Shown here: one piece after another, positions 21,692 through 54,030 of the stretch
Layout: every line of letters begins with the position of its first letter
How positions within the stretch are numbered: position 1 is the first letter of the stretch
NCBI RefSeq assembly: GCF_035917235.1
Contig: NZ_CP108423.1
Location: 7,531,501 to 7,595,500, forward strand
DNA: 64,000 nt
From: Streptomyces sp. NBC_01294
GTDB taxonomy: Bacteria; Actinomycetota; Actinomycetes; Streptomycetales; Streptomycetaceae
Reading direction: 5' to 3'
Notes under the pieces: model-generated
The model's input: the letters and a program-made list of their open reading frames with translations, nothing else
Told to the model about the DNA's origin: nothing
The model's database searches: none
Translations under genes and position numbers: made by a program

Positions 21692-21726
21692 GGGCCGAGA
21701 GGGCCCGTATCAGACCGATCGGCCCT
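21692..21726. promoter_or_regulatory. Paired OsdR/DevR-like palindromes between two usp genes
   Basis: GGGCCGAGAGGGCCC (21692-21706) and CAGACCGATCGGCCCT (21711-21726) lie in the divergent region between the two usp genes. The 19-20 bp offset places them on the same DNA face. The same paired design recurs before six other transcription units of this island. Confidence 0.5.
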
Positions 21727-21957
21727 GGTAGGGGAGTAGGCAAGGCGAGGTCGGCCTGGCGGGCGAGCCGGTCGGCTTCCGATGGATACCGCCACTCGCT
21801 CGTGCTCGTCCACAGGGAGCTCGGTGATGCCGTGCGCGACACGTGGCTTCGCGACATTCTTGAAGGAGCTGACCGGATCCACCAGGCGACCTCGTTCGTC
21901 ATCAGGTTTCGGAGCGTGTGATGGATGACACCTCCTGGCTTTCGGTGAGGAGGATTC

Positions 21958-22869
21958 ATGGCAGTCGGTATGACGCATGGTCCTGAGCTCGGCGCTGTGG
22001 TGGCGGGAGTGGATGGATCCCGGTCTGCGGAGCGGGCGGTGTTCTGGGCCGCGGCGGAGGCCGTGCGGCGGGATGGCACCTTGCACCTCGTGCACGGCGC
22101 GGACACCGACAGCCGGATGCTGTATGCATCTATGTACGCCATCGAGCGGATACGTCGGGCGGGCCGGGACCTGCTCGAGGAGACCGCCGCCAAGGTCGCC
22201 GAACGCCATCCGGGGCTGCACGTGTCGACCGAACTCAGTCCCCACGAGCCGGTCGCCGGCCTGCACGCTGCGGCTGCGGACTCCGACACCATCGTGGTCG
22301 GTAGCCGCGGCCTCGGCGGCTTCGAGTCACTGATGCTGGGTTCGGTCGGCCTGAAGGTCGCCGCGGGCGCCAAGGCGCCCGTGGTCGTGGTCCGGGGGGA
22401 CGAGAACACCGCCGAAGCAGGGGTCGTGCTGGCCGCCATCCGTGACGAACATGATGTGGAGTGCGCGAGGTACGCGGCGAGTGAGGCGGAGCTGCGCCGG
22501 TCGTCACTGCGGTTGTTGCACGTCTGGAATGTGCTGGAGTCCGTGGCGGAGAGCGTGACCGTGCTCGACGATGCGGACGAGGGAGTGCAGGTGCACGTAC
22601 GAAGGGTGACGTCAGTGGCCCACCGGATCCGTGACGAGTTCCCGGCCCTGAGCCTGCACGTCGACACAGAGAAGAGTTCGTCCGTCGCAAGGGTGATGGT
22701 GGAGGCGTCACGCCACGCGGACCTGTTGGTCATGGGCGGACGGCGCACCCCCGGATACTTCGGGCCCACCCTGGGCTGGGCGACGCACAGCCTCCTGCAC
22801 CACTCACACTGCCCCGTGGAACTCATTCCGCGCCATGGCAAGCAGGACGACGAGGACCAAGGGTTGTGA
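21958..22869 (+). CDS. Universal stress protein, two Usp domains
   Basis: A 303-residue protein with tandem UspA domains (about residues 11-147 and 153-294). The first domain has VVAGVDGSRSAERAVFWAAA and the nucleotide-binding pattern VVGSRGLGGFESLMLGSVGL. In the second the ATP loop is degenerate (MGGRRTPGYFGPTLGWATHS), so only one site may bind ATP. Usp proteins support survival under hypoxia and starvation. It is divergent from the frameshifted usp, with the palindrome pair between them; one of five usp loci in the island. Confidence 0.9.
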   Translation: MAVGMTHGPELGAVVAGVDGSRSAERAVFWAAAEAVRRDGTLHLVHGADTDSRMLYASMYAIERIRRAGRDLLEETAAKVAERHPGLHVSTELSPHEPVAGLHAAAADSDTIVVGSRGLGGFESLMLGSVGLKVAAGAKAPVVVVRGDENTAEAGVVLAAIRDEHDVECARYAASEAELRRSSLRLLHVWNVLESVAESVTVLDDADEGVQVHVRRVTSVAHRIRDEFPALSLHVDTEKSSSVARVMVEASRHADLLVMGGRRTPGYFGPTLGWATHSLLHHSHCPVELIPRHGKQDDEDQGL

Positions 22870-22960
22870 CCACCCCGAAGGCCGCGGAATCGGCGTCAGC
22901 CTCGTGGAACACCTCCGGGCCAGCTGCGGTGAGTCCGTCAGTGGGCGGCCCCGCAGCTGC

Positions 22961-23105
22961 TGTGAGTTCCACACGCACGTCCACCATGCCTTGGACGGCG
23001 CGGGCGGCGCGCATGACCAGAGGGACCAGAGCACGGTTGTGGAGGCTGCCCCGGAGCGTCCTCACCCTCCTCGACCGAGCAGTCGAGTGAACCGGCGGCG
23101 CCGGT
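22961..23105 (-). pseudogene. BON-domain remnant of a CBS-BON gene
   Basis: The minus strand reads LDCSVEEG, loses frame, then continues VRTLRGSLHNRALVPLVMRA and ARAVQGMVDVRVEL. This matches the C-terminal BON domain of the CBS-BON protein at 52790-53434 (DCTVEEGVVTLRGDLRDRAL). The CBS domains are absent. It is a decayed duplicate next to a usp gene. Confidence 0.7.
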
Positions 23106-23686
23106 TCCGGGGTCAAGGCCAAGGGGGCCGGACAGCCCCGTTCACCGTGGCTGCACCCCGCCCGCGCCCGCACCGGCCGCAGTCGGGAACCGTGGCCAGG
23201 CACTTTGCTTGACGCCTGGCACGCTGGGCGGACCGGCAGTCCTCGTGCCTGGTGGCGGCCCGTGTCGGCCGTGCCGTTTTCGCCGCGAGGGCCGATTCTG
23301 GAAGCGCGGGGCATGCGCACGTGGCCTTCATCGCCCGGCTGTGGATGCCGCGCCGAAGGGCCGTCTTCGACTGAGGAGCCTTCTGTTGCTCACACGGGTC
23401 CGTTGGTCGGTGTAACACGCGTCGCGGTCGGCCAAGCCCGGGCCGCCGCGTGAGCCACTTCCGCGACAGCGACCTCGCCGTGCTCATCGTGTCTGGCTCG
23501 GCAGGGTGGTGTCGGCCCCCGTGCCACGGCTCACCACAGGGTTCTCACCCCTGCCGTGCGCCGGGCAGGCTTGGCCTACCGGTCAGGTCCCGCCGGACGG
23601 GCGTACATTCTTAACAGTGGGGCTGATGTTCCCAGCGATCACGAAGTACGGGCTGCCGACGGACAGCCCGGGGGCAGGAGCGTGAC
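23106..23686. other. 580-bp stretch without a recognisable gene
   Basis: No frame shows recognisable domains. A lightly AT-rich ACATTCTTAACAGT at about 23605 could be part of the promoter of the DUF5994 gene. Confidence 0.35.
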
Positions 23687-26796: not shown

Positions 26797-27388
26797 ACGG
26801 CACCACAGGATGAGGGCAGGACGACCAGGACGAACGACCGGGCGGGCACACAGAGGACAAGCCCGAAGCAGTGGCAGTCACCAGGTGACGCCGATGGACC
26901 GAGCGGTCCGCTGCCCGCACGCGAGAAGCCTGTCGGGCCACCGCCTGTACGGCCGGGGCGCCTCACCACGGGATCGGTCCGTGGAGACCATCCGGGTCCG
27001 CGAACTGGTCGGCTGATCCGCACCGCGCGCCGTTGCCAGCCGGTGACTGCGGCCGAGACCACCAGGCCAGTCTTCCGTGCAGTTCTCACAGCCAGTTGCC
27101 GAGTCCGCGCCTAGGACCAATGGGGACAGGAGCGGGACCAGTCGGCCCCTGTGAGGAGACTGGCCGGTGTCTAGCCTGGTGAGTGGGCTGCGAGGCGAGC
27201 ATGGGACTCGGCTTCGCCGGTGTCAACGGCGGCGAGGCCTTGCCTGATCACCGGCTTGTGATGGCCCCCGGTACGCAATCCGGGCGAGGGATCTCACCTC
27301 GCAGGTCCCGTGGTGTGCCGGGACGTGGCACGGCCCGTCGACTGGCGGGGCCGAGAACGATCTGCGGGGGCGCGACGCTGGAGGAACC
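26797..27388. promoter_or_regulatory. Regulatory gap with paired OsdR/DevR-like palindromes, upstream of the M50 protease gene
   Basis: The two sites are AGGACCAATGGGGACA (27113-27128) and GGGACCAGTCGGCCCC (27134-27149), about 20 bp apart. They lie some 240 bp before the protease start, so a long leader or a short gene may lie between. A 69-codon frame at 27183-27392 has no recognisable features. The rest of this 592-bp region appears non-coding. Confidence 0.45.
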
Positions 27389-28564: not shown

Positions 28565-28678
28565 GCAGCAGCGGGTTCCACGCGGAGCGGCGAGTGGCTT
28601 CCCGGATCCGCGTCGCCGGGACCGCATGGCGCCCTGCAGCGGCGCAGGAGGGTGTGCCGTAATGGGTCATCCCTTGGG

Positions 28679-29587: not shown

Positions 29588-29630
29588 CCCCACCGCCTCT
29601 CGAGACTCAGATCGACTCACTGGCACGCTC

Positions 29631-30899: not shown

Positions 30900-30908
30900 A
30901 CAGGCCAC

Positions 30909-32832: not shown

Positions 32833-32888
32833 GGCGGCCTCCGTTCGAGTCCGTTTCCAGTCTTGCTCAGAGGTCCCTCGCAGGGCAT

Positions 32889-32924
32889 GGGCCGACCGGC
32901 CCCACAGGTGGCCCAATCAGACCC
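32889..32924. promoter_or_regulatory. Paired OsdR/DevR-like palindromes upstream of the cNMP-binding gene
   Basis: GGGCCGACCGGCCC (32889-32902) and TGGCCCAATCAGACCC (32909-32924) are offset by 21 bp. The stretch between site and gene (GCGGCCTCCGTTCGAGTCCG) is repeated almost exactly before the paralogue at 53939. The remaining plus-strand DNA to 33238 shows no gene. Confidence 0.5.
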
Positions 32925-33877: not shown

Positions 33878-33894
33878 GCAGGCCGGTGGGCGGG

Positions 33895-39956: not shown

Positions 39957-40179
39957 CATGCTGCCGGATCTAGGCACGTGGAGACCGAGAGGTGCACCAT
40001 GACCGACGCTTCGGACGCCGGAGCCGTCCTCGACCACCAGGACGCACAGGTGCTTCATCGAGTACCGCTTACGGTCGCTTCACGGCTACCGGCGCGAGCG
40101 CGGGGACGACAGGGCTCCGGCCGGCCGGAACCGGACACCTCAGCGCCCTTCCAGTCATCTACCAGACGGAGCAGCCGGC
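39957..40179. other. Gap upstream of usp
   Basis: A weak palindrome-like GGGGACGACAGGGCTCC starts at 40102. An open frame from ATG 40001 (MTDASDAGAVLDHQDAQVLH) has no recognisable family and may be the start of a lost gene. Confidence 0.3.
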
Positions 40180-41055
40180 ATGGAGCCAGTCGTCACCGTG
40201 GGCCTCGACGGCTCACCCGAGAGCCTCGCCGCTGCCCGTTGGGCCGCTGACGAAGCCGACCGCCGCAAACTCACGCTGCGCCTGTTGCACGCGTGGCCCC
40301 TGCTGGCTCCGGAACCGACCCACGTCCCCTCCGAGATGGATCAGAACTACTGGGCGAAGCGGATCGTGCACAACGCGAAGGCGGAGCTCCAAGCGCGCCA
40401 CCCGGGCCTGACCATCGTCGGCAACCTGGTCGCCGAGGATGCTCAGGAGGCGCTGCTGAAAGCGTCAGCGGAGTCCGAGATGACCGTGCTCGGTTCGCGA
40501 GGACTGGAGCCCGTCGAGAGCTATTTCCTGGGCGACATCAGCATGCCCGTCGTCGCACGGGCCGAGCGGCCGGTGGTCCTGGTGCGCGCCGGGACGCGCG
40601 AAGAGGGTCCGCCGTCCGCTCCAGGTGCCTCAGGCGGCGTAGTGGTGGCATTGAAACTGCACGGTCCGTGCGACGACCTGCTCGCGTTCTCCTTCGCCGC
40701 CGCCGCGGCACGGGGCGTTCCCCTGCAAGCCGTCCACGGCCGGAGCGTTCCCCTCCACGCTCACGCTCCCTGGGGCACGGACCACGACGTGACCGAGAAG
40801 ATCACGCAGGACGCGCGGAAGCTCCTGAGCGACGCCCTTCGCCCCTGGCGCGAGAAGTTCCCGAGTGTGGAGGTGGCCGACAGCGTCGGTCTTGAAAGCC
40901 CCACCAAGGCCGTGGTGCGGGCCGCAGAGGGCGCAGGGCTGCTGGTCGTCGGCCGACGCAGGCACCGCCCTGCCCTGGCACCCCCATTGGGTTCCGTGGC
41001 CACCGCCGCGATCCATCACGCGCGCTGCCCCGTCGCCGTCATTCCCCATGACTGA
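40180..41055 (+). CDS. Universal stress protein, two Usp domains
   Basis: A 291-residue protein. Domain 1: VVTVGLDGSPESLAAARWAA and VLGSRGLEPVESYFLGDISM. Domain 2: GLLVVGRRRHRPALAPPLGS, then HHARCPVAVIPHD. In domain 1 the GS of the G-x9-GS loop is replaced by GD, so ATP binding may be weak. The stop overlaps the next start by 8 bp, indicating a coupled operon with the kinase-like gene. Confidence 0.88.
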   Translation: MEPVVTVGLDGSPESLAAARWAADEADRRKLTLRLLHAWPLLAPEPTHVPSEMDQNYWAKRIVHNAKAELQARHPGLTIVGNLVAEDAQEALLKASAESEMTVLGSRGLEPVESYFLGDISMPVVARAERPVVLVRAGTREEGPPSAPGASGGVVVALKLHGPCDDLLAFSFAAAAARGVPLQAVHGRSVPLHAHAPWGTDHDVTEKITQDARKLLSDALRPWREKFPSVEVADSVGLESPTKAVVRAAEGAGLLVVGRRRHRPALAPPLGSVATAAIHHARCPVAVIPHD

Positions 41056-42634: not shown

Positions 42635-43002
42635 GCAGCGTGGCGAGCCTGTGTGCAGTCGCCCGCTCGCCGCAACGAACGTCCTGTTCCAAAGGGCCCG
42701 GGCGAGCCGGTGGTCCCAGCACGAAGCCAGGGCGGCTGATCACGACGACCGGGTGAATCAGGGTCTCTCCGGCATGACGCACGTGCAGGGGGAGGTAGTG
42801 CGGCCTCTATTGCCGGTGCCGGCCCGGCCGGAGAGAAGAAGCGCGAAGCGGACGGCCGCGGTGATTGCTTTGCCCTGCGGCAGATCTGTCTCGCCCCCGG
42901 CAAGAGCAGGTGCCGAATGCCTCCGGTGGACCCGCCCCTTGGCATGGCGCACAGTGGCACGTGACGCCGTACACCCGCTGTCTTGATCACGGAGGCTTTG
43001 TC
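42635..43002. other. 368-bp gap
   Basis: No gene or palindrome pair recognised. CACGGAGG lies just before the next start. Confidence 0.35.
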
Positions 43003-43194
43003 ATGACCCAGAGCACCCCTTCCGAACAGGACCGTTTGTCCCTCGTCGAAGCACAGGTGCAGACGCTCGCCCAGGCAGTGCGGGCACTGGCCGAAGGGTT
43101 GGAGGCCAACCCCTCACAGGAGACAGAAGGATCGGCCCACGCGGCGCGCGGCGCACGGCTCGCTCATGAGCTTCTCCTGGCCCAGGGCCTGTAG
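43003..43194 (+). CDS. Small helical hypothetical protein (63 residues)
   Basis: ATG 43003 has GGAGG 9 bp upstream. The product is SEQDRLSLVEAQVQTLAQAV, then RALAEGLEANPSQETEGSAH, then RLAHELLLAQGL. Heptad-like Leu/Val spacing suggests a short coiled coil. There is no recognised family. A strong hairpin follows at 43277. It lies directly before the CBS-BON array, on the opposite strand. Confidence 0.6.
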   Translation: MTQSTPSEQDRLSLVEAQVQTLAQAVRALAEGLEANPSQETEGSAHAARGARLAHELLLAQGL

Positions 43195-43276
43195 TGCCAC
43201 TGGGAGGACCGCATGGTGGAAGGCGACGAGGGGGGTAGGAGACGTCCACTCCCTCCTCATCGGCACAGCCGCTCGA

Positions 43277-43299
43277 GGAGCCGCCCAGTGGGCGGCTCC
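43277..43299. terminator. Perfect hairpin terminator
   Basis: 10-bp arms GGAGCCGCCC and GGGCGGCTCC enclose the loop AGT. It lies 82 bp after the small gene and about 190 bp beyond the last CBS-BON stop on the other strand, so it may serve both. Confidence 0.65.
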
Positions 43300-43485
43300 G
43301 GGGCTTTCCGTGGATCAGTAGAGGCTGGCGACGATTCGATCGTTCATGATGGCTTCCCCATGCATGGGGGATGACCGGGATCCACTTGACGGGCCACGTT
43401 CACCGTGAGGAGGGGATGGTTCGACCGCGCCGACGTGCTGACCGGCCGCGGGATCCGGAGGTACTCGACACGGTGGTTGGCTCGC

Positions 43486-44142
43486 TCAGGCTGAGGGCGT
43501 GTCGTCGATGGCGTATCCGAGACGTGAGGTGACGGAGACCACGCCGTCCACGGTCCGGCAGAGGCGTTCGATGAGTGGGATGAGGCTTTTGTAGTCGACC
43601 GTTCCTTGCAGCTCGACCCGGCCGTCGGTGACGCCCACGGTGATGGCCGAGGGGCTCTGGCGCAGGCTGAGTTCGAGCACGTCACCCATGATTTCGTGAC
43701 GGATGTCCTCGTCGTCCCGGAGGAAGATCCGTAGCAGGTCCCGTCGGCTGACGATTCCGATCAGTACGTCCGCGTCGTCCACGACCAGGAGCCGCTTGAC
43801 TCCTTGTGCTTCCATCAACCGGGCGGCTTCGGCGACGGTCCAGTCGGGTCTGGCGCACACGGGGGGCGAGGACATCAGCTCCTCGGCGCGCGTACCTGCG
43901 GCCTTGTCCTCCTGCCAGGCCTCCCGTTCGGGAAGTGACCTGAAGTAGTCGCTTTGGCCTGCGGATTTCGGCAGCAGGTCCCGTTCCGAGATCACGCCGA
44001 GCGGGTGGCCGGAATGGTCGACGACTGGGACGGCCGACACTTTGTGTTCCGTCAGGGTGCGGGCGATCTCCTTGAAGGGGGCGTTGTTGGGGACGGTGAC
44101 GACCTCGCGGGTCATCAGCTCGCGGACTTCCCGATGCTTCAT
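43486..44142 (-). CDS. CBS-BON protein (array member 1)
   Basis: A 218-residue protein with CBS 1 at about residues 6-60 (VRELMTREVVTVPNNAPFKE to VVDHSGHPLGVISERDLLPK), CBS 2 at about 87-140 (EELMSSPPVCARPDWTVAEA to LVVDDADVLIGIVSRRDLLR) and BON at about 150-212 (ITVGVTDGRVELQGTVDYKS to VDGVVSVTSRLGYAIDD). The BON domain is usually a membrane- or phospholipid-associated module. Last gene of a three-gene run (gaps 12 and 9 bp) headed by 45396. Confidence 0.9.
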   Translation of the reverse strand: MKHREVRELMTREVVTVPNNAPFKEIARTLTEHKVSAVPVVDHSGHPLGVISERDLLPKSAGQSDYFRSLPEREAWQEDKAAGTRAEELMSSPPVCARPDWTVAEAARLMEAQGVKRLLVVDDADVLIGIVSRRDLLRIFLRDDEDIRHEIMGDVLELSLRQSPSAITVGVTDGRVELQGTVDYKSLIPLIERLCRTVDGVVSVTSRLGYAIDDTPSA

Positions 44143-44151
44143 GCTCTTCTC

Positions 44152-44778
44152 CTACCGCTCGGTGGGCGTTCGAGCGCCGACCGACACGTCGTCCTGTGCG
44201 TAGTCGAGCCGGTTGACCACGTCGACGACGCCGTCGACGCTCTGGCACAGGCGCAGCACGATGGGGACCAGGCTGCGCCGGCTTACGGTGCCGCTGAGGG
44301 TCACCAGCCCGTCGGTGACCTCGACGGTCAACGACGACGGGCTGAGCCCGAGGGTGTGGGTCACCACGTCTTCGAGGATTTCCTCCTGGATCGCGTGGTC
44401 CCTGCGCAGGAAGAGCTGGAGCAGGTCGCTGCGGCTCAGGATGCCGATCAGTCGGCCGGCGGCGTCCACCACGGGCAGCCTCTTGACCTGCCGCCCCCGC
44501 ATGACCCGCGCTGCGCGGACGACGCTCCATTCGGTCTGTGCGGTGATGGCGGGGCTGGTCATGAGATCGGCGGCCGTGTTCGTGCCGCTGCCGGAGCTGC
44601 GCTTGCGCAGCAGGTCGGCCTCGGAGACGACGCCCACGGGACGTTCGGCCTCGTCCACCACGGGCACGGCGGAAATGTCGAACTCCTTGAGGAGCCTGGC
44701 GATTTCCTTGAACGGGGTGCCCCGCTGGACGCTGACGGCTGTCGGGGTCATCAGGTCGGCGACGCTGCGGTGCCTCAT
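44152..44778 (-). CDS. CBS-BON protein (array member 2)
   Basis: A 208-residue paralogue of its neighbours, with CBS 1 (VADLMTPTAVSVQRGTPFKE, PVGVVSEADLLRKRSSGSGT), CBS 2 (DLMTSPAITAQTEWSVVRAA, LIGILSRSDLLQLFLRRDH) and BON (LTVEVTDGLVTLSGTVSRRS, CQSVDGVVDVVNRLDYAQDD). It starts 12 bp after member 3 and is followed after 9 bp by member 1. The linker between the CBS domains is shorter than in member 1. Confidence 0.9.
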   Translation of the reverse strand: MRHRSVADLMTPTAVSVQRGTPFKEIARLLKEFDISAVPVVDEAERPVGVVSEADLLRKRSSGSGTNTAADLMTSPAITAQTEWSVVRAARVMRGRQVKRLPVVDAAGRLIGILSRSDLLQLFLRRDHAIQEEILEDVVTHTLGLSPSSLTVEVTDGLVTLSGTVSRRSLVPIVLRLCQSVDGVVDVVNRLDYAQDDVSVGARTPTER

Positions 44779-44790
44779 CGTCGGCCTCCC

Positions 44791-45396
44791 TCACGTGCGG
44801 ACTTCGGCGTCGAGGCGCACGGCCGTGACGTCCACTACCCCCGGTACGGTGCGTGCGACTCGGACCAGCACGTCCTTCAGGGCCGGGTCGGGGATGGAGC
44901 CGTCCAGATGCACGATGCCGTCGGCCACATGCACCTGGACCATGGCCGATCCGGCGGGGATGAGCTCTGCCATGATCAGTTCGCGGAGCTCCTCGGCGAT
45001 GTCGGCGTCGGGGCGGAGGTAGATCTTGAGGAGGTCGCTCCGGCTGACCACGCCGACGAGGCGGCCGTCGCCGTCGACGACGGGGAGCCGCTTGAGGTGG
45101 CCGCGGGCCATCAGACGGGCGGCGCCGGGGATGGTGGCGTCCTTGGTCACCGTGACCGCCGGTACGGTCATCAGCTGCCCGGCGGTGACTGCCCGGGACT
45201 CGTCCGTGCCCTGGGCCTTGAGCAGCAGATCCGCTTCGGATACCACGCCGGCGACCCGTCCTTCCTCCGACAGGACGGGCAGGGCGCTGATCCGCCACTG
45301 CCGCATGGCCTCCACGACGTCCTTGAACGGTGCTCTGCGGTCGACGGAGATGACGGCATGAGTCATCACGTCCTCGACGGTGCGAAGCTGCTTCAT
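44791..45396 (-). CDS. CBS-BON protein (array member 3, first in operon)
   Basis: A 201-residue protein from ATG 45396, preceded by GGAGG; an in-frame start at 45426 lacks one. It has CBS 1 (VEDVMTHAVISVDRRAPFKD, RVAGVVSEADLLLKAQGTDE), CBS 2 (QLMTVPAVTVTKDATIPGAA, LVGVVSRSDLLKIYLRPDAD) and BON (VQVHVADGIVHLDGSIPDPA, VPGVVDVTAVRLDAEVRT). The palindrome pair at 45460-45495 lies 64-99 bp upstream, placing the whole run under the same regulator. Confidence 0.9.
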   Translation of the reverse strand: MKQLRTVEDVMTHAVISVDRRAPFKDVVEAMRQWRISALPVLSEEGRVAGVVSEADLLLKAQGTDESRAVTAGQLMTVPAVTVTKDATIPGAARLMARGHLKRLPVVDGDGRLVGVVSRSDLLKIYLRPDADIAEELRELIMAELIPAGSAMVQVHVADGIVHLDGSIPDPALKDVLVRVARTVPGVVDVTAVRLDAEVRT

Positions 45397-45459
45397 GATG
45401 CCTCCAGTAGCGGCGTCTTGATACATCCGATCGTGGACACCTGTGCCCGCCTGGCGGTA

Positions 45460-45495
45460 GGGCCGTCAGGGGATCACTTCGGGCTGATTGGCCCT
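45460..45495. promoter_or_regulatory. Paired OsdR/DevR-like palindromes upstream of the CBS-BON run
   Basis: GGGCCGTCAGGGGATC (45460-45475) and GGGCTGATTGGCCCT (45481-45495) are offset by 21 bp. The second is close to the consensus; the first is degenerate. A coding-like plus-strand scrap at 45540-45640 (GPWEDAEKRLAAVHRTIGIR) has no start and no recognised family. Confidence 0.45.
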
Positions 45496-45645
45496 GTTCT
45501 CCAGGTGACGGGCGTACTTCATGAACGGATGAAATTGACGGCAAGGGTCCCTGGGAGGATGCGGAGAAGCGGCTGGCGGCCGTGCACCGCACGATCGGGA
45601 TCCGCGAGAAGCAGGCGGAACTCTTTCCGCCCTGTGTCGCGGGGG

Positions 45646-46332
45646 TCAATGCGTGGCATGGCGAGGGTCGGCAACTGGAGACAGGTCGTCGATCGCGTAG
45701 CCGAGGGCTTGGTCCACGCTGACGACCCCGTCGACCGACTGGCACAGTCGTTCGACAATCGGAATGGTTGACCGCTCCTGGACCTGGCCGCTCAGGGAGA
45801 CGACCCCTTCGTTTACGGTCACGGCAACGCCTCCCGGGGTCATCCTGAGCGTCCGGCCCAGTACGTCGTCGACGATTTCATCGCGGATGGCGTCGTCGCG
45901 ACGGAGCATGGGCCGCAACAGGTCGGTGCGGCTGACGATGCCCACCAGGGTTCCGGTCTCGTCGACCACCGGCAGACGCTTGACACCTCGCTCGTGCAGG
46001 AAGCGGGCCGTCTCGACGATGCCCCACTCCGGACGGGCGGTCAGGACCGGGGTGGACATCAGATCGCCGGCGGTCCGGGCGCCCATGGAGGCACGGTCCA
46101 TGGGCGCCGCGGCGCGCATGGGGTCGCGCCCTTCGGTATCGGGCAGCCCGGCCTGCCTGCGAAGCAGGTCGGCTTCGGAGACGATGCCGATCGGATGGTG
46201 ACGGGTGTCCACGACGGGCAGGGCCGAGACCCCGTTGTCATCGAGGCTCCGGGCGACCGTTTTGAGTGACGCTTCAGGGGCGGCCGTGGCCACGTTCCTG
46301 GTCATGACGTCTGCGACAGTGCGGTGAGACAT
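45646..46332 (-). CDS. CBS-BON protein (array member 4)
   Basis: A 228-residue protein with CBS 1 (VADVMTRNVATAAPEASLKT, IGIVSEADLLRRQAGLPDTE), a long Met/Ala-rich linker, CBS 2 (DLMSTPVLTARPEWGIVETA, LVGIVSRTDLLRPMLRRDDA) and BON (VAVTVNEGVVSLSGQVQERS, LCQSVDGVVSVDQALGYAID). It starts 28 bp after the usp gene at 46361-47230 and shares that gene's promoter and palindromes. Confidence 0.9.
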   Translation of the reverse strand: MSHRTVADVMTRNVATAAPEASLKTVARSLDDNGVSALPVVDTRHHPIGIVSEADLLRRQAGLPDTEGRDPMRAAAPMDRASMGARTAGDLMSTPVLTARPEWGIVETARFLHERGVKRLPVVDETGTLVGIVSRTDLLRPMLRRDDAIRDEIVDDVLGRTLRMTPGGVAVTVNEGVVSLSGQVQERSTIPIVERLCQSVDGVVSVDQALGYAIDDLSPVADPRHATH

Positions 46333-46360
46333 GGTCCGATCTCCCTTGTGAGTAGGTCCG

Positions 46361-47230
46361 TCAGTCGTGAGCGATGACCGCGACGGGGGCGGCGGCGTGG
46401 TGCAGGACCGCGTGGGCCACGGACCCCAGATGCGCCCCCAGAGGCGAGCGGCGCAGATGGCGGCCCACCACGACGAGGTCCGCGTTCGCTGCGGCTTGGA
46501 CGAGCTGGTCGCCGGCGGGCCCCATGAACGCCTCGTGGGTGACGCAAACGGACGGGAACTTGTGCCGCCACGGCATCAGCATGTCGTCGAGCATCACGGT
46601 GACACTCCGGCCGACCTCCCGCTCGTTCTCCGGGTCGAAGAAGGGCGCGTACTGGTACATGGAGGGCAGCTTCCAACCGTGGACCGCACGCAGGGCGCAG
46701 CCGCGACGGTCGGCTTCCTCGAAGGCGAAGGCCAAAACCTTGTCCGCTGCCTCGTGGATGTCGATCCCCAGGACGATCTCCCCGTACCGGACGGGCTGGG
46801 CCTCCTCGGGCGCGTCCGACACGCGTACGAGTGCCACCGGCGTCTCGGTGGCCGCCAGAGTCGACAAGCTCACCGAGCCGATGAGGAATCCGACGAGACC
46901 TCCCACCCCGCGGGAGCCGAGTACGAGCAGCCCGGCGTCCACCGCCTCCGCGGCCAGGGCTGCCGCAGGCCTGCCTGAGAGGCATCTCGTCGAGACCTCC
47001 AGCCCGGGATGCCGGCGTCGCACGTCCTCCAATGCCTCGGTGAGCGCCTCGTCGGCCCAACGGTCGGCCGCTTCGCTGCCCAGCCCTGGTACCGCGGGAC
47101 TGATCAGCCAGTCGACAGCGTGGACGAGCCTCAGCGGCACGTCCCGCAAGGCCGCCTCCCGGGCGCCCCACAGAGCCGCAGCCCGGCTCTCGCGAGAGCC
47201 GTCCACGCCGACGGTCACATGGTGCTTCAT
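46361..47230 (-). CDS. Universal stress protein, two Usp domains
   Basis: A 289-residue protein from ATG 47230 with AAGGAGG upstream. Domain 1: HHVTVGVDGSRESRAAALWG and VLGSRGVGGLVGFLIGSVSL. Domain 2: EIVLGIDIHEAADKVLAFAF, VVVGRHLRRSPLGAHLGSVA and AAAPVAVIAHD. The first domain has a complete ATP motif. It is the closest relative of the frameshifted usp at 20748-21625. First gene of a usp/CBS-BON operon with a clear palindrome pair at 47303-47337. Confidence 0.9.
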   Translation of the reverse strand: MKHHVTVGVDGSRESRAAALWGAREAALRDVPLRLVHAVDWLISPAVPGLGSEAADRWADEALTEALEDVRRRHPGLEVSTRCLSGRPAAALAAEAVDAGLLVLGSRGVGGLVGFLIGSVSLSTLAATETPVALVRVSDAPEEAQPVRYGEIVLGIDIHEAADKVLAFAFEEADRRGCALRAVHGWKLPSMYQYAPFFDPENEREVGRSVTVMLDDMLMPWRHKFPSVCVTHEAFMGPAGDQLVQAAANADLVVVGRHLRRSPLGAHLGSVAHAVLHHAAAPVAVIAHD

Positions 47231-47302
47231 GGCCAGAACCTCCTTGGGCGGCGCGGGACGGCGGTCCTCTTCCAGCGTCACCTGCGGCGCGATGACCGAG
47301 GA

Positions 47303-47337
47303 GGGGCCGAGTGGCCCCATGTGGGACCGATCAGCCC
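47303..47337. promoter_or_regulatory. Paired OsdR/DevR-like palindromes upstream of usp
   Basis: GGGGCCGAGTGGCCCC (47303-47318) and GGGACCGATCAGCCC (47323-47337) lie 73-107 bp before the usp start. Both are near-perfect copies of the motif, offset by about 20 bp. Confidence 0.55.
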
Positions 47338-47341
47338 CCCG

Positions 47342-47540
47342 CTACTCCATGGAGGCGCGCGAGGCGACGTAGTCCGCGCAGCCGTCCAGGGTGTTCACCG
47401 CCGGATAGTCGGACTCGGGCAGGGCGAGACCGGTGCGCTCGCTCAGCGCCTCGATGAAATTTGAGGGAGTCGAGCTGTCGGCAAACCGCCGTGCGCCGGC
47501 GCGCCCATACTCGGGAGGGGGGAGTGATCCGTCGCAGGCA
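47342..47540 (-). pseudogene. Acyl-carrier-protein-like remnant
   Basis: The minus strand gives DSLK in one frame and FIEALSERTGLALPESDYPA, then VNTLDGCADYVASR, in the next. The latter resembles the second half of a phosphopantetheine carrier protein, where DSL would hold the modified serine. One extra T in AAATTT separates the frames. The N-terminal part is not recognisable. Low-certainty call. Confidence 0.4.
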
Positions 47541-47589
47541 TCGTTCTCCGCGGCCGGGACAAGGCGTGTGTGAGGGCGAAGGCACACGT

Positions 47590-48024
47590 TCAGGAGGGCG
47601 GCCCGGGTGGTTCCTCGAGGACGCTCCACGCGACGGGACCGAGTAGGTCCGCCACCCGCTGGAAGACGTCCATCAGCAGGTCATCCACGGTCAGCATGCC
47701 CACCACCTGGCTTCCGTCCAGCACGGGCAGGCGGCGGACCCCAGTTCTCCGGAAGGTCCGGTACGCCTCGTGGATGTCGTCGGTCGCATTCACGGTGACG
47801 ACTGGGGATGTCATCACCGCATCCACCGGCTCGCCCATATCCAGGCCCTCGGCCAGCGCGCGCAAGGCCAGGTCACGGTCGGTGACGATACCCCGAAGCG
47901 CCCCACCTTCCGTGACCACCACGGAACCGATCCCGTACTCGCCCATCTGCCGGGCCACCTCACCGACCGGTGTCCGCGGAGGAATCGTCACTGCTGGTGC
48001 GCTCATTCGATCGGATACGTTCAT
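47590..48024 (-). CDS. CBS-domain pair protein
   Basis: A 144-residue protein consisting of two CBS domains: residues 1-58 (VSDRMSAPAVTIPPRTPVGE, VVVTEGGALRGIVTDRDLAL) and 66-125 (VDAVMTSPVVTVNATDDIHE, LPVLDGSQVVGMLTVDDLLM). There is no BON domain. It belongs to the IMPDH-like short CBS proteins that bind AMP/ATP-type ligands. No palindrome pair was seen upstream. Confidence 0.85.
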   Translation of the reverse strand: MNVSDRMSAPAVTIPPRTPVGEVARQMGEYGIGSVVVTEGGALRGIVTDRDLALRALAEGLDMGEPVDAVMTSPVVTVNATDDIHEAYRTFRRTGVRRLPVLDGSQVVGMLTVDDLLMDVFQRVADLLGPVAWSVLEEPPGPPS

Positions 48025-48077
48025 CGTTCAGCTGCTCCCTGAAGCCTGCAGCCCGTGGGGCAGCAGGAGGTTGGAGT

Positions 48078-48281
48078 TCATGCTGCGGCTTCGGTGTCCA
48101 CGGGCCGTTCTGACAGCCGCCCTTCCAGCATGCCGTCGGTCAGCTGCACGGCGCGATGGCCAAGGGCGTTGAGGAGCCGAACGGCGTCGTGGGGCAGGAC
48201 GCAGTACTCGCTGCGGCAGTAGGCGACGACTTCGGAGCTGGGCGGCAGTTCCGCCTGGCCCGACGTGGCAGCGGGCACCCG
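48078..48281 (-). pseudogene. Rhodanese-domain C-terminal remnant
   Basis: The minus strand reads ELPPSSEVVAYCRSEYCVLP, then HDAVRLLNALGHRAVQLTDG, then MLEGRL, and stops at 48078. It keeps the active-site loop CRSEYC of rhodanese sulfurtransferases, as in ArsR-rhodanese proteins. The N-terminal half is missing. Confidence 0.65.
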
Positions 48282-48869
48282 TCCGGGTGAGAGAACCACG
48301 GCTGATCGGCGGGTGCGCAAGCGGTCACGCCCCTGGTCTCCCGAAGCTGCCGCGACTTGCAATGTAACTCAGCGTGTCATGCGGGCCTTGGCCTCGGACT
48401 TCCAGCGTCGCCACTCGGATGTTCTTCCGCTCGGACTGCGCCATCGCCGCGAAGCGCAGCGCGCGGGGCATGAGCGTTGAGTGCGTATCCGGTTCGGAAT
48501 GTCGTGGGTGGGGTGCTGTGCCGCCCGGGCCGGCCCGGCAACACGCACCGACAGGAACTACCTCGATGCCGGCCCGTGTGTCCGGCCGGGGGCGGTGCCG
48601 AAGCCACCCATGTGGCCGCAGGCTTTCACTGGTGGCCCGAGTTGACAGTCATCACCTCTCGTTTAGGCCGAATGGTCCCCTCAAGGGACCCGATGGTCTC
48701 AAGACCGTTCTCCAGGCCAGGCGCAGATTGGAGGAGTCCCTGTTGGGCGCTCGAGCCCAGGGCAGATGAATCGAGGAGGGGGAAACTTAGGCACAGCGTG
48801 TTCCCGGACCCTCAGAAAAGGTCACTCGGAGTTCCGTGCTCTGTCACCACAACCAACCAGGAGGCGGCC
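48282..48869. promoter_or_regulatory. 588-bp gap with paired OsdR/DevR-like palindromes before a CBS gene
   Basis: AGGCCGAATGGTCCCC (48665-48680) and GGGACCCGATGGTCTC (48685-48700) are offset by 20 bp, about 170 bp before the CBS start. A 39-codon minus-strand frame (48325-48444, MAQSERKNIRVATLEVRGQG) may be a gene start whose remainder is lost. Otherwise no gene is visible. Confidence 0.45.
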
Positions 48870-49289
48870 GTGACGACCGCGCGAGAGATCATGCACGAGG
48901 GCGCGTCCTGCGTCCGCGAGGAGGAGACGCTCATGGACGCGGCACGCCGCATGAGCGAACTGGGAGTGGGAGCACTCCCGATCTGTGGGCCGGATGACCG
49001 GCTGCACGGCATCATCACCGACCGTGACATCGTGATCAAGTGCCTGGCCAAGGGCAAGGACCCGCACCACATGACGGCGGGCATGCTGGCTGAGGGCAAG
49101 CCGTTCACGGTGGCCGCGGACGCGGACAGCGGACAGGTCCTGCAGATCATGCAAGAGCACCGTGTCCGACGACTGCCCGTCATCGAAGACCACCGGCTCG
49201 TCGGCATGATCAGCGAAGCCGACCTGGCACGCCATCTGTCAGAAGACCAGGTTGGGCACTTCGTCGAAGCCGTCTGCGCCGTCCCTTGA
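48870..49289 (+). CDS. CBS-domain pair protein
   Basis: A 139-residue protein from a GTG at 48870 with CCAGGAGG upstream. It has CBS 1 (AREIMHEGASCVREEETLMD, LHGIITDRDIVIKCLAKGKD) and CBS 2 (MLAEGKPFTVAADADSGQVL, RLPVIEDHRLVGMISEADLA). This is the short hypoxic-response-protein-1-like architecture (Hrp1 of the mycobacterial DosR regulon has the same two-CBS plan). The paired palindromes upstream fit that regulon. Confidence 0.88.
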   Translation: MTTAREIMHEGASCVREEETLMDAARRMSELGVGALPICGPDDRLHGIITDRDIVIKCLAKGKDPHHMTAGMLAEGKPFTVAADADSGQVLQIMQEHRVRRLPVIEDHRLVGMISEADLARHLSEDQVGHFVEAVCAVP

Positions 49290-49931
49290 AGCCCTGTGCG
49301 GGCGGGTAAGGGATCTGGGGCCCGGCTGGCTGGCAGCTCACGTGCTACGCCGGGCGGCCCACCGGCGGACCCCAGAACTGCCGATTGGAGAGACCGTGAC
49401 GGCACATGCGACTCCACTCGGGGAACTCGTGGCAGCTCCCCCTGAACCGGTCTGTCGTGGTCCGAGTGGCACGCTGCCGACGCGCACGACGCCGACGCCT
49501 CCTCCCGGGGATCCGGGGAGGGACCAACCCGGGCTGCGTCCCATACACACCATCCGGGTGCTTGATCTCTTCGGCTGATCCGTCGGCCTCGTGTCGGAGA
49601 TGTGCAGTGACTGTGGCGCGGCCACGGGGACGGCCGGCGCAACGCGTGACAAGAGACGGCACTGCTTGCAGCGACGCTGCTCCGTCCGAGGAAGCGGAGC
49701 CGCGCGGACACCCAGCTCCGCCCCAGGGCGTCGACATGGCATCCGCCGATCGCGGCGAAGAAGCCGCTGCCGAGCGCCCGCCCACGTGCCGGCGGCCGCG
49801 CGTAGTGGCCAGGTTGAGAAAGTACATCGCGGGGCCGAGGGCCGAGGCACCGGGGAGGCCGACGCGTTCGGCGACCGCCGGTGCCCAGGTCCGTCGTATG
49901 CGCAGGAGCAGAGCGTCCTCCTTGCAAGACG
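49290..49931. other. 642-bp stretch without a confident gene
   Basis: A 60-codon plus frame (GTG 49396 to 49578, GGAGAG upstream; VTAHATPLGELVAAPPEPVC) is possible but has no recognisable family. Longer frames on either strand look like composition artefacts. Confidence 0.35.
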
Positions 49932-50207
49932 ATGAACCCTGACACCACAGGAAGCGGCATCCATGCACACCTGGGGGACCAGATGGTCGTGGGCGGCCCC
50001 ACGGTCGGCAAGCCCGGCCGTGACGGCGAAGTCGTCGGACTGCACCATGACGACGGCACTCCGCCGTACGACATCCGCTGGTCGGACACCGGCCGCGTCA
50101 CGCTCTACTTTCCTGGTCCGGATGCCCACGTCAGGCATTTGGGCGACGCCGAGGGAAAGCCGGCAGACCGCCAGGCACAGCGGCGGCCGCGCACGTCTCC
50201 GAAGTGA
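49932..50207 (+). CDS. DUF1918 domain protein
   Basis: A 91-residue protein. The core GDQMVVGGPTVGKPGRDGEV, then VGLHHDDGTPPYDIRWSDTG, then RVTLYFPGPDAHV is the SH3-like DUF1918 fold (usually MxAxVGDRLVVxGxxVGxxxRxGEIVEV). It has a ~12-residue N-terminal and a ~25-residue basic C-terminal extension. The role is unknown; homologues are common beside usp genes in actinobacteria. Confidence 0.85.
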   Translation: MNPDTTGSGIHAHLGDQMVVGGPTVGKPGRDGEVVGLHHDDGTPPYDIRWSDTGRVTLYFPGPDAHVRHLGDAEGKPADRQAQRRPRTSPK

Positions 50208-50276
50208 ACCCATCGCAACGCGGGGCTACCGTGGAGAGAGACGTCAGTTCCATTCCCGCGTGCCCTTGGAGGTGCC

Positions 50277-50945
50277 GTGGTCGGGGAGGGCCACGACACC
50301 CCGCGCACCCCGCTGCCCCGTCTGAGGCTGGATGAACTGCTCGACGAACTCCAGGTACGGATAGATGAGGTACGCGGCACCCGGGACCACCTGAACGGTC
50401 TCCTGGAAGCCGTCATGTCGGTCGGTCGTGAACTCGACCTGCCGCAGGTCCTGACGGGGATCGTGGAAGCTGCAGTGGTACTTGTGGACGCGGAGTACGC
50501 GGCCCTGGGAGTGATCGGGGATGACCGCAAACTCGCGGAATTCCTCCCCGTCGGCATCAGCGACGAGCTGCGTGCCCAGATCGGTGATCTGCCTTCCGGG
50601 CACGGCATCCTCGGAGAGCTGATCCGTCACCCCGAACCGCTGCGCCTGACGGAACTGTCCGACCATCCGGCCTCGTACGGTTTCCCGGCCCACCACCCGC
50701 CCATGCACACCTTCCTCGGAGTGCCCATCCGGGTGCGCGAGGAGGTGTTCGGCAACCTCTACATGACCGAGAAGCGGGGCCGGGCGGACTTCGACGCCGA
50801 GGACGAGGCCGTCCTGTCGACTCTGGCTGTCGCGGCCGGAATCGCGATCGAGAATGCACGGCTCTTCGAGGACGTCCGGCTCAGAGAACGCTGGCTGGAG
50901 GCCAGCTCCGACTTCACGAACGAGCTGCTGTCCGGCTCCTCCTAG
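50277..50945 (+). pseudogene. osdK: OsdK/DevS-like sensor kinase, N-terminal part (first GAF) up to an in-frame TAG
   Basis: 222 residues from a GTG at 50277 (TTGGAGG upstream) encode a coiled lead (LDELLDELQVRIDEVRGTRD) and a GAF domain (about 55-198): GDLPSGHGILGELIRHPEPL, SYGFPAHHPPMHTFLGVPIR and VFGNLYMTEKRGRADFDAED. In mycobacterial DosS/DosT this first GAF binds heme; His140 in HHPPM is a candidate axial ligand by analogy. The frame ends in LLSGSS then TAG (50943-50945), and the next codons continue the same protein in the same frame. The kinase is thus one gene interrupted by a single stop. Confidence 0.85.
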
Positions 50946-52010
50946 ATCCAGGTATTGGAAGGGATGCTGGAGCGGGCCCGCGAGATCACTGCGGCCGACA
51001 TGGGCGTCTTCTACCTGGTCGGCCCGGGCGGCGAGCTGCGCGGCTCACTGGCCGTCGGCGAGGGAGCCGAGGCACATCGGGGCATCGTGCTGCCGAGCAG
51101 TGAGGGAACCCTTGCCGCAGCGGCCCTCGCCCAGGACGGATTGATCACGGTCCCGGACGTCGAGAGCGACGAGCGCGTGACCGTACAGCCGGAGCGGTGG
51201 AAGGGCTTCGGGCCCGCGGTAGCGGTGACGGTGGGCACCAAGGAGCGGCTGAGCGGCGTACTGATGCTGGCCCGTCGACGCGGTCGCGCACCGTTCGCGG
51301 CTACGGAGACCTTGGCCTTGCCTGGCTTCGCGGGGCAGGCCGCGATCGCCCTGGAGCTTGCCGATCGCCGGCGGGACGCGGAGCAGATGAGTCTGCTCGA
51401 GGACCACGACCGCATTGCCCGGGACCTGCATGACCTCGCGATCCAGCGGCTGTTCGCCACTGGAATGACCTTGCAGAGCGCCCAACGCTTCGTGGAGCAC
51501 CCCGAGGCGTCCGAGAGGTTGAGACGGGCCATTGACGACCTCGACACCACCATCAAGATCGTCCGGTCGACCATCTTCGGCCTTCGAGAACACGAGATGC
51601 CGGATGCGGAGCCGAAACTCAGGCTCCGCGCAGTCCGAGCGGTTGACGAGGCCGCTGCCGTGCTGGGCTTCGCCCCCGCCTTGCGGATGGAGGGGCTGGT
51701 AGAAACCGACGTGCCAGTGTCAGTGGCCGATGAGGCGCTGGCCGTGATCGGTGAGGCGCTCAGCAACGTCGTTCGGCACGCCCGTGCCCGGCATACGGAA
51801 GTCTCCATCGCGGCGGTCGACGGCGTACTCGTGGTCACCGTGACCGACGACGGCGTCGGAATCCCAGAACATGGGCGCCGCAGCGGGCTCCGCAACCTGG
51901 CCGAGCGGGCAGAGAAGCTGGGCGGCCGACTGACCGTCTCGACACGAGGCGCGGCGGGACACGGCACCCGCCTCGAATGGACGGTTCCCTTGCCCAGGGC
52001 CGACGCCTGA
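50946..52010 (+). pseudogene. osdK: OsdK/DevS-like sensor kinase, C-terminal part (second GAF, HisKA_3, HATPase)
   Basis: The same reading frame continues IQVLEGMLERAREITAADMG with a second GAF (to about residue 140 of this part). The dimerisation helix follows with phospho-acceptor His in DRIARDLHDLAIQRLFATGM, then the ATPase domain with N-box GEALSNVVRHARARHTEV and G-boxes TDDGVGIPEHG and RGAAGHGTRLEW. A TTG at 50955 (or the ATG two codons later) could start a separate heme-free kinase. A ribosome site is not obvious, though GGAAGGG lies just before the ATG. It ends 14 bp from the convergent response regulator. Confidence 0.87.
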
Positions 52011-52024
52011 CCCCGTAGCGGTTG

Positions 52025-52717
52025 TCAGGGCTTGCCCGCTTCGTGCTCGTGTACTTGGGCGGCGATGACCGCGGCTTGGACCCGGCGTTCGACGCCCAGT
52101 TTGCCGAGCAGCCGGGAGATGTGGTTCTTGACGGTCTTCTCGGACAGATAGAGCTGCTTGGCGATCTGCCGGTTGGTCAGGCCGCTGCCGATGAGTTCTA
52201 GGACGGCCCGCTCGCGCTCAGTGAGCGCGGTGAGGCGCTCGTCCTCCGGCGGCTTGGCGGCTTCCGGGTCCCGCAGTGAGTGCATGAGCCGGGCGGTGGT
52301 TGCGGGGTCGAGCATCGACTGCCCCGTTGCGACCGTCCGCACGGCGGCGACCAGGTCGGATCCCTTGATCTGTTTGAGCACGTAGCCGGCGGCGCCGGCC
52401 ATGATCGCGTCGAGGAGGGCGTCCTCGTCGTCGAAGGACGTGAGCATGAGGCAGGCGAGCTCCGGCATGCGCGAGCGCAGCTCGCGGCAGACGGTGATGC
52501 CGTCGCCGTCCGGCAGCCGTACGTCCAGGACCGCCACGTGCGGCCGCAGGGCCGGACCCCGGGCTAGAGCCTGCTCGGCGGTGGCGGCCTCGCCCACCAC
52601 TTCGATGTCGGGTTCGGCGTCGAGGAGGTCGTGCAGCCCCCGGCGGACGACCTCGTGGTCGTCCAGGAGGAACACCCTGATGGGCGCCTCCGCAGAAGCA
52701 GCCGGTGTATCGGACAT
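52025..52717 (-). CDS. osdR: DevR/OsdR-type NarL-family response regulator
   Basis: A 230-residue regulator. The receiver (residues 13-130) has the acid pair D19-D20 in VFLLDDHEVVRRGLHDLLDA, phospho-acceptor D65 in VAVLDVRLPDGDG, T93 and K115. The DNA-binding LuxR-type domain is at about 163-215 (LTERERAVLELIGSGLTNRQ, IAKQLYLSEKTVKNHISRLL). The wording VRRGLHDLLDAEPDIEVVGE and AGAAGYVLKQIKG closely matches mycobacterial DevR/DosR. The partner kinase is the convergent GAF kinase. The repeated GGGCCGATCGGCCC-like pairs in the island are its likely targets. ATG 52717 was chosen over 52753 because the receiver begins near residue 13. Confidence 0.92.
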   Translation of the reverse strand: MSDTPAASAEAPIRVFLLDDHEVVRRGLHDLLDAEPDIEVVGEAATAEQALARGPALRPHVAVLDVRLPDGDGITVCRELRSRMPELACLMLTSFDDEDALLDAIMAGAAGYVLKQIKGSDLVAAVRTVATGQSMLDPATTARLMHSLRDPEAAKPPEDERLTALTERERAVLELIGSGLTNRQIAKQLYLSEKTVKNHISRLLGKLGVERRVQAAVIAAQVHEHEAGKP

Positions 52718-52789
52718 CCACGCCCCTGAGGTCGGTGTACGTCTCAGTCGCATTGTCGCAGGAAGGGTCGGAAAGTACCGGGGAGCGGG

Positions 52790-53434
52790 TCATACGGCCG
52801 TACCGACCGGACCTGCGAGCTCCATCCGCACGTCCACGACCCCTTCGACGGCGCGGGCGGCGCGGGCGATCAGAGGTGCCAGGGCGCGGTCCCGTAGGTC
52901 GCCCCGCAGGGTGACGACGCCCTCCTCGACCGTGCAGTCGATGCCTACCGGGGGAGCCAGTTCCGCGAGGACGGCATTGCGGACCTCGTCTTCGATTTCC
53001 TCGTCGGGCCGCAGGAACACCTTGAGCAGGTCACTGCGGCTGACGACGCCCTCCAGCAGGCCGATGGCATTGACCACCGGCAGCCGTTTCACGCCCTTCC
53101 TGGCCATGATGCGGGCGGCTTCGGTGATCGTGGCGTCCGGGTGCACGGTGACGGCAGGGCTGGACATGAGCTCCTCGGCGAGCACTGCTCCGGCCTTGGA
53201 CGCCTCCTCCATCTGCTCGGGCAGTCTCGGGTCGTTCCGCCGGAACTCCTCCTTGGGCAGAAGATCGGCCTCGGAGACGACGCCCACGACCCGGCCCTCT
53301 CCTTCGAGTACCGGCAGTGCGCTGACCTTCCACTGATGCATCAGCTCGACGATCTCCTTGTACGAGGCCTCGCGGCCGATGGCCACGGCGGTCTGGGTCA
53401 TGACATCGCTGACGGTGTACTGGGATGCGGGCAT
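52790..53434 (-). CDS. CBS-BON protein downstream of the cNMP-binding gene
   Basis: A 214-residue protein with CBS 1 (VSDVMTQTAVAIGREASYKE, VVGVVSEADLLPKEEFRRND), CBS 2 (ELMSSPAVTVHPDATITEAA, LEGVVSRSDLLKVFLRPDEE) and BON (IDCTVEEGVVTLRGDLRDRA, AVEGVVDVRMELAGPV). It starts 40 bp after the cNMP-binding gene, forming a two-gene unit. Remnants of close copies are at 32042-32309 (CBS half) and 22961-23105 (BON half). Confidence 0.92.
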   Translation of the reverse strand: MPASQYTVSDVMTQTAVAIGREASYKEIVELMHQWKVSALPVLEGEGRVVGVVSEADLLPKEEFRRNDPRLPEQMEEASKAGAVLAEELMSSPAVTVHPDATITEAARIMARKGVKRLPVVNAIGLLEGVVSRSDLLKVFLRPDEEIEDEVRNAVLAELAPPVGIDCTVEEGVVTLRGDLRDRALAPLIARAARAVEGVVDVRMELAGPVGTAV

Positions 53435-53474
53435 GGCCGGCTCCCTCACATGATCTCGATGGGGAGGATCCGGT

Positions 53475-53939
53475 TCACAGCGAGTTGCCGCTGCCATGAG
53501 GCGCGTAGAGGTCGAGGAGCCGGACCCTGGCGGCCACGAGCCGGTGGGCGAGCACCTGGCCCACCCAGTGGTCCATGGCGGAGCCGAATCGGGGGTCGGC
53601 CTCCATCATCGAGCGCACGGCGGCCGCATCGAACTCGTGGGCGCGTACAGGGCTCGTCGCCTCCGCACCGAAGTGCCAGGTGTAGGGAGGGAACAGCCAG
53701 GACCAGCCGACCAGCTCGCCGGAACCAAGCGCCTCGATCACCGCTGCCTGTCTGCCGGGCACGTGAACGTCGAGGCCGACCGTGCCGGATCGCACGATCC
53801 AGAACCGGTCGGCGTGGCCTCCCTCATTGAAGAGGCGGGTACCTACGGGAAAATCGACCTCACGCGCGATGTCCGTCAGACGGGCGCGGTACTCCGCCGA
53901 CAGGGCGTTGGCGATCCGGGTGGGGGAAGGTGTGCTCAT
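53475..53939 (-). CDS. Cyclic-nucleotide-binding-domain protein (CRP-like sensor, no HTH)
   Basis: A 154-residue single cNMP-binding barrel: PVGTRLFNEGGHADRFWIVR, GLDVHVPGRQAAVIEALGSG and ELVGWSWLFPPYTWHFGAEA. There is a short C-terminal helix pair and no DNA-binding or catalytic domain. It is collinear with its paralogue at 32368-32832. It probably signals by protein contact, or through the co-transcribed CBS-BON protein (inference). Paired palindromes lie at 53995-54030. Confidence 0.87.
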   Translation of the reverse strand: MSTPSPTRIANALSAEYRARLTDIAREVDFPVGTRLFNEGGHADRFWIVRSGTVGLDVHVPGRQAAVIEALGSGELVGWSWLFPPYTWHFGAEATSPVRAHEFDAAAVRSMMEADPRFGSAMDHWVGQVLAHRLVAARVRLLDLYAPHGSGNSL

Positions 53940-53994
53940 CGCGGCCTCCGTTCGAGTCCGCCTTCAGTCTGGGACACGGCAGGGCTGCGGGGAT

Positions 53995-54030
53995 GGGCCG
54001 ATCGGCCCTGGTCGTGACCCCGACGGGCCC
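53995..54030. promoter_or_regulatory. Paired OsdR/DevR-like palindromes in a divergent promoter
   Basis: GGGCCGATCGGCCC (53995-54008), the most perfect copy in the window, and GACCCCGACGGGCCC (54016-54030) are offset by 21 bp. They lie between the cNMP-binding gene (minus) and the SHOCT gene (plus), and may control both. Confidence 0.6.

Follow-up and report, generated by a model that had tools for sequence, protein, structure and literature searches.

The present analysis deals with a stretch of 64,000 nucleotides from Streptomyces sp. NBC_01294 (positions 7531501-7595500 of a contig of 8.23 Mb), referred to here as the window, and with eight pairs of palindromic boxes that it contains. The two boxes of each pair stand 20-22 bp apart, a -10-like element follows as a rule at a fixed distance, and the pairs lie in front of usp, CBS, CBS-BON, cNMP-binding and protease genes in a cluster that also encodes a response regulator of the DevR/OsdR family. 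Judged from sequence, the pairs are very probably the promoters of a regulon of the DevR/OsdR type. This turns a set of look-alike palindromes into a testable promoter rule, namely boxes about 21 bp apart plus a -10 element at a set distance from them. This rule was borne out in loci new to the scoring matrix and would allow OsdR targets and transcription starts to be predicted across Streptomyces.

Box pairs in the window

The boxes agree with the 16-bp palindrome published for the OsdR (SCO0204) regulon of Streptomyces coelicolor, AGGGCCGATCGGCCCT (PMC5069765), and their assignment as OsdR/DevR boxes is supported at the sequence level. At least two adjacent boxes are present at each promoter. 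S. coelicolor OsdR binds the consensus in electrophoretic mobility shift assays, and this dormancy regulator has been tied to sporulation and stress in Streptomyces (PMC5069765). As far as accessible, that paper gives the sites singly, the word "spacing" does not occur in its main text, and SCO0517 is the only entry in its Table 1 in which a 20-bp pair is visible.

All seven pairs listed in the initial annotation were found at most 1 bp away from the positions given there, which confirms the observation of paired boxes, and an eighth pair at 39107 had been overlooked. The constant spacing of 20-21 bp claimed for them applies to six of the seven (20, 21, 21, 21, 20 and 21 bp from centre to centre), whereas the last pair is spaced by 22 bp. 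In order to avoid circularity, the pairs were scored with matrices blind to the window. Matrix 1 was derived from the 25 S. coelicolor sites in Table 1 of PMC5069765. With a summed score of at least 8 and spacings of 20-22 bp, it yields nine pairs in the window (six of those claimed, 39107, and two more at 8364 and 17787) and misses 48665, as opposed to 1.8 on average and 7 at most in 60 Markov simulations. At a score of at least 12, five window pairs are found, compared with a simulated mean of 0.45 and a maximum of 2. Matrix 2 was iterated on 20 osdR loci (400 kb) and never trained on the window; these training stretches come from 15 other genomes out of the 51 with a match, 61 genomes having been searched. 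The top eight window pairs of matrix 2 are exactly the seven claimed pairs and 39107, with scores of 27.1, 23.7, 23.4, 23.2, 21.0, 19.6, 16.5 and 14.1. Six of them reach at least 19, as opposed to a mean of 0.04 and a maximum of 1 in 100 order-2 Markov simulations, which refutes random DNA as a source of equally frequent pairs. Across 520 kb of background from the same genome, which leaves out the OsdR clusters on both chromosome arms and three hit-bearing stretches, no pair of at least 19 was found; this background contains five pairs of at least 15 and 14 pairs of at least 13. An off-spacing control in the window with a threshold of 17 gave no pair at 24-27 bp and one at 30-33 bp. The counting of consensus matches was too blunt, as it missed weaker partner boxes and called stray pairs such as 56400.

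Behind the eight pairs lie two usp genes, two cNMP-binding genes, one CBS-BON gene, one CBS gene and one M50-CBS protease gene, together with a hydrogenase maturation protease gene at 39107; the target classes named in the initial annotation were right. On the minus strand, the strongest pair (score 27.1; spacing 20; 47303..47338) is assigned to a usp gene with a start refined to 47230 and a leader of 37 nt, and the pair at 32888..32924 (spacing 21) to a cNMP-binding gene with a start refined to 32832 and a leader of 20 nt. The pair at 21691..21726 (-; spacing 20) is assigned to the usp gene at 21200-21625 (-), with A-NNN-T at 21667..21663 and a predicted start near 21656, and the weakest pair (14.1; spacing 21; 45459..45495; -) to a CBS-BON gene with a start refined to 45396 (-) and a leader of 27 nt. 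On the plus strand, the pair at 48664..48700 (16.5; spacing 21) is assigned to a CBS gene with a likely start at 48870 (+) and a leader of 134 nt. The nearest homologous gene to the pair at 27113..27149 (+; spacing 21) is the M50-CBS protease gene at 27389 (+); the -10 element of this pair, TAGCCT, lies at 27172-27177, and a composite model described below scores its two strands about equally. The pair at 53994..54031 (23.4; spacing 22) is divergent, with a run of cNMP-binding (53475..53939), CBS-BON (52790..53497) and osdR genes on the minus strand behind a leader of 20 nt and a SHOCT gene at 54121 (+) on the other side. The additional pair at 39107..39143 (spacing 21) lies upstream of the hydrogenase maturation protease gene at 39231 (+). 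Based on the -10 geometry, transcription is predicted to start at about 53959, 32852, 47267, 21656 and 45423. Five of the eight pairs have leaders of 20, 20, 27, 31 and 37 nt, each containing a stretch that matches GGAGGA at 4-5 of its 6 positions. The usp gene at 21200-21625 is probably truncated, as only the first half of the Pfam domain is matched.

Box spacing and the phased -10-like element in relatives

Matrix 2 finds 80 pairs in 19 of the 20 training loci, with spacings of 21 (35 pairs), 22 (25), 20 (12) and 23 bp (8), where only 20-23 bp were allowed. When the published matrix was applied to the same 20 loci with all offsets of 14-59 bp allowed, partner counts for 109 strong sites peak at 20-23 bp (10, 22, 29 and 8 partners) as opposed to 0-6 partners at each other offset; in this test, two strong partners count each other. 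The peak at 20-23 bp recurs in 65 held-out loci (16, 40, 25 and 17 partners, compared with 0-17 elsewhere, the 17 being at 32 bp). In a redundancy-filtered version of this set, 90 strong sites have 27 partners at 21 bp, as opposed to 0-7 at offsets outside 20-23 bp. The held-out set comprises 65 of the best 80 named loci, after 15 had been dropped, three judged to be training loci and 12 sharing 60-base words with them. Its loci are not independent in descent, because they come from the same genus or close kin and all surround the same gene. The two-turn spacing proposed in the initial annotation is confirmed and is seen again in held-out loci of the genus. Weak further partner peaks were seen in these loci near 43, 53-55 and 64 bp, possibly helical-turn multiples.

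When the promoters were aligned on the gene-proximal box, a recurring element emerged downstream. Plain TANNNT failed as a guide, since it is nearly absent (two matches in 37 promoters, one of which is the well-placed element of pair 27113), and Gibbs sampling gave only a blurred element, which was resolved by alignment on TG and then on A-NNN-T. In the TG alignment, an A stands four bases ahead of the T in 81% of 81 ends, with A making up about 15% of the DNA; the conserved A is preceded by G in 56% and by T in 4% of these ends. An A and a T four bases apart are the kept positions of the actinobacterial -10 element as described for Mycobacterium smegmatis (PMC6448022). With offset 0 assigned to the base that immediately follows the centre of the proximal box, the A lies at 31 or 32 and the T at 35 or 36, that is, at the 36th or 37th base. 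A-NNN-T occurs at this fixed offset in seven of the eight window pairs, in 59 of 140 ends in relatives (3.3% expected), in 59 of 176 held-out ends (2.9% expected) and in 44 of 116 non-redundant held-out ends (2.8% expected). Taking the T as -7 places the box centres near -43.5 and -64.5, and the proximal box overlaps the -35 region of the predicted starts, as judged by the phased A-NNN-T element alone. The fixed -10 distance behind the box pairs is the addition of the present analysis to the OsdR promoter picture. No published rule for box pairs and the -10 element in Streptomyces was recognised in the open literature searched, which was covered mostly at the level of listings, and the rule described here is sharper than any found in print.

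The pairs outside the window amount to 74, of which 70 were found in relatives and four on the left arm of the chromosome. In 32 cases, the pair precedes a homologue of a window gene by at most 350 bp; a further 41 pairs lack a neighbour of this kind, and one is intragenic. The 32 homologues comprise 15 usp, seven CBS-BON, three osdR, two cNMP-binding and two pyridoxamine oxidase genes and one gene each for a hydrogenase protease, a GAF kinase and a SHOCT protein. Homology-based gene ends were used in place of a third-codon-GC gene caller, whose over-extended starts placed 35 of 70 pairs within genes.

In addition, the genome was scanned with a composite model (R2), which combines the two boxes with the -10 element and was trained on relatives, and with a boxes-only model (R1). 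An alignment of box pairs (A1) was built from 62 of 66 listed pairs. Each scan scored 150 first-look candidates, out of 29886 for the composite and 26012 for the boxes-only model, and is not exhaustive. At E<1e-3, the composite scan gives at least 14 rows genome-wide, six in the window, six on the left arm and two at 7.176 Mb, with three places counted twice as repeat copies. Within the window, the 15 top-ranked composite rows are all accounted for by the eight pairs. Specificity was lower for the boxes-only model, with 13 of 18 listed rows at E<0.1 in the arm clusters. At 7.176 Mb (contig 7176089-7176725), two paired promoters lie 600 bp apart; the first precedes an OsmC-like open reading frame and the second a short, narK-remnant-like one, both named by eye.

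The OsdR regulator and competing explanations

The regulator is encoded at 52025..52753 on the minus strand, with a likely start at 52717, as the third gene behind pair 53994. It contains Response_reg and GerE domains and its best solved relative is DevR (3c3w, E 7e-73), which bears out the earlier statement that the island encodes its own DevR/OsdR-type regulator. VraR and NarL likewise combine REC with a GerE-type helix-turn-helix, but are far more distant (3e-40 and 4e-35), and none of the 25 NCBIfam models among the matches listed for the window OsdR reaches its cut-off. In the alignment with DevR, the stretches VAVLDVRLPDG and EKTVKN are common to both proteins and the phospho-acceptor Asp is kept, which in DevR is Asp54 (PMC3029386); Lys182 has also been named for DevR (PMC5999986). 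The window regulator is present in the genome in two identical copies, accompanied by a paralogue (88%) at 664110 and a relative (59%) at 3.96 Mb; with two further close copies, the window OsdR need not act alone. Lys182 falls within EKTVKN, and the recognition-helix residues of DevR are kept in the window OsdR.

In the proposed mechanism, a phosphorylated OsdR dimer would bind each 16-bp palindrome, so that the DNA would carry two cooperatively binding dimers on the same face, centred near -64.5 and -43.5 with roughly two helical turns between them. Lying over the -35 region, the proximal dimer would activate transcription by bringing RNA polymerase to a poor -10 element, ANNNT, in which the leading T is usually missing. 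As osdR is third in the cNMP-binding/CBS-BON/osdR run behind pair 53994, it likely drives its own expression, and low oxygen or a redox signal may be the trigger. The same layout is described for DevR/DosR of Mycobacterium tuberculosis, where close primary and secondary boxes are bound cooperatively, the proximal box lies over -35 and the -10 elements deviate from TANNNT like those of the window (PMC3029386, PMC7018068, PMC5360333). The window differs from that regulon in the genus, the GGCC-type box arms and targets such as the CBS-BON and M50 genes. With the S. coelicolor regulon it shares overlapping classes around osdR, namely usp, Crp-like, pyridoxamine oxidase and pyruvate phosphate dikinase genes; there, osdR forms an operon with osdK (PMC5069765), whereas in the window osdR follows the cNMP-binding and CBS-BON genes and is convergent with the kinase gene. 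The cluster may well work like the DevR/OsdR systems, and the one tested feature that fails in the window is the intact cognate kinase.

It is conceivable, though on balance unlikely, that the boxes belong to the regulon and are mainly bound by another close regulator, e.g., the 88% left-arm paralogue. The number of OsdR copies in the genome favours this explanation, as does the left-arm cluster with its own pairs and an intact kinase frame, but the EKTVKN stretch in the recognition helix of the window OsdR is identical to that of DevR, because of which all close OsdR copies are expected to read the same box, and the window osdR itself stands in a run behind a pair. Repression, in which OsdR over the -35 region would block the polymerase, is improbable: a proximal box covering -35 is a repressor's place too, but most of the -10 elements are without the first T of TANNNT, as expected for activator-dependent promoters, and DevR of M. 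tuberculosis is an activator with this layout (PMC3029386, PMC5360333). That GGCC-rich palindromes, common in DNA of 70% GC, formed random pairs may suit the frequent low-scoring pairs of the background, but is refuted for the set by the absence there of any pair of at least 19, as opposed to six in the window, and by the finding in held-out loci of the fixed -10 element, a feature that plays no part in the matrix; for 45459 or 48664 taken singly, chance is possible.

Several observations weigh against the reading of the pairs as promoters of an OsdR-type regulon. Pairs 48664 and 45459 are individually not significant and do not stand alone, because the background contains pairs of at least 15 and 13; they are carried by their position and the phased -10 element. 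The boxes-only model ranks an intragenic site at 14334 over several pairs and gives 45460 only 6.6 bits, and five of its 18 listed rows in the genome scan lie outside the arm clusters (7.176, 1.330 and 2.067 Mb). Pair 27113 is located 205 nt from its assigned gene, and pair 39107 has no strict A-NNN-T on the strand of the nearest intact gene, the composite model preferring the minus strand. The seven of eight window pairs with a phased element are not a blind result, because the display in which the pattern first appeared included the window. A-NNN-T was found on neither side in 13 of 70 pairs in relatives (offsets 31-33) and in 35 of 90 held-out pairs (offsets 31/32). Finally, an in-frame TAG (50943-50945) between the GAF domains splits the window kinase, and both repeat copies carry this stop.

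The GAF-A half of this DevS-like kinase (50277..50945, +) ends at the TAG, and the half with GAF-B, HisKA_3 and ATPase domains (50955..52010, +) follows in the same frame; an intact GAF-GAF-HisKA_3 haem kinase beside the regulator was not found in the window. No stop occurs at this position in any of 15 kinases in the relatives' loci or of 37 in the named loci (overlapping sets), and the paralogous kinase on the left arm is one open frame of 582 aa. The GAF-A half aligns with DevS and DosT and keeps a His and a Tyr that match the haem ligand and distal Tyr of DevS. Since a stop codon interrupts the kinase of the island itself, OsdR would probably be phosphorylated by the intact paralogue on the left arm, or else by the two halves working jointly.

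The terminal inverted repeat and neighbouring genes

The window part 40044..64000 belongs to a right-hand terminal inverted repeat with its inner edge near 40040, and its mirror identity to the left arm is 99.94% over the 44 kb compared, starting at window base 40044. Both contig ends mirror each other, and one further gene pair, 537625/7688390, mirrors at equal distance. Because the arms match in mirror image and the contig ends do so as well, the chromosome is inferred to be linear, with a terminal inverted repeat of about 655 kb at either end. The edge of the repeat falls inside the "island" of the initial annotation, between the hydrogenase maturation protease and usp genes. Pairs 45459, 47303 and 48664 lie within the repeat. 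Past the edge, the left arm carries a diverged second OsdR cluster (contig 660001-700000) with its own regulator, an intact kinase frame and box pairs at 671361, 676201, 678804 and 683402. By coordinates, a usp gene follows 671361, a pyruvate phosphate dikinase gene follows 678804, a beta-CASP nuclease gene lies by 683402, and a CBS-BON gene is found further on.

Taken together, we tentatively propose that the Streptomyces OsdR regulon may be one rigid module (box centres 20-23 bp apart, ANNNTG about 32 bp past the second centre) with predictable start sites, and that here the repeat would have doubled the regulator and half of the regulon while their own kinase is broken, so that the doubled regulator would depend on a paralogous kinase present on the other arm only. 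The combination of a broken kinase and a duplicated regulator offers a natural setting in which to ask whether paralogous DevS-type kinases cross-phosphorylate.

Some further genes were noted in the window. Downstream of the minus-strand promoter of pair 39107 lies a small coding remnant (38730-38984, -), apparently frame-broken, the DNA of which is 85% identical to the left arm. Transposase genes (Mutator-type and DDE_3) occupy 17987-20406 at the left edge of the cluster, adjoined by carotenoid-type genes (lycopene cyclase, 16555-17766; polyprenyl synthase, 9514-10740). One open reading frame at 24527-26137 fuses a phosphoribosyltransferase domain with a weak alpha/beta-hydrolase match.

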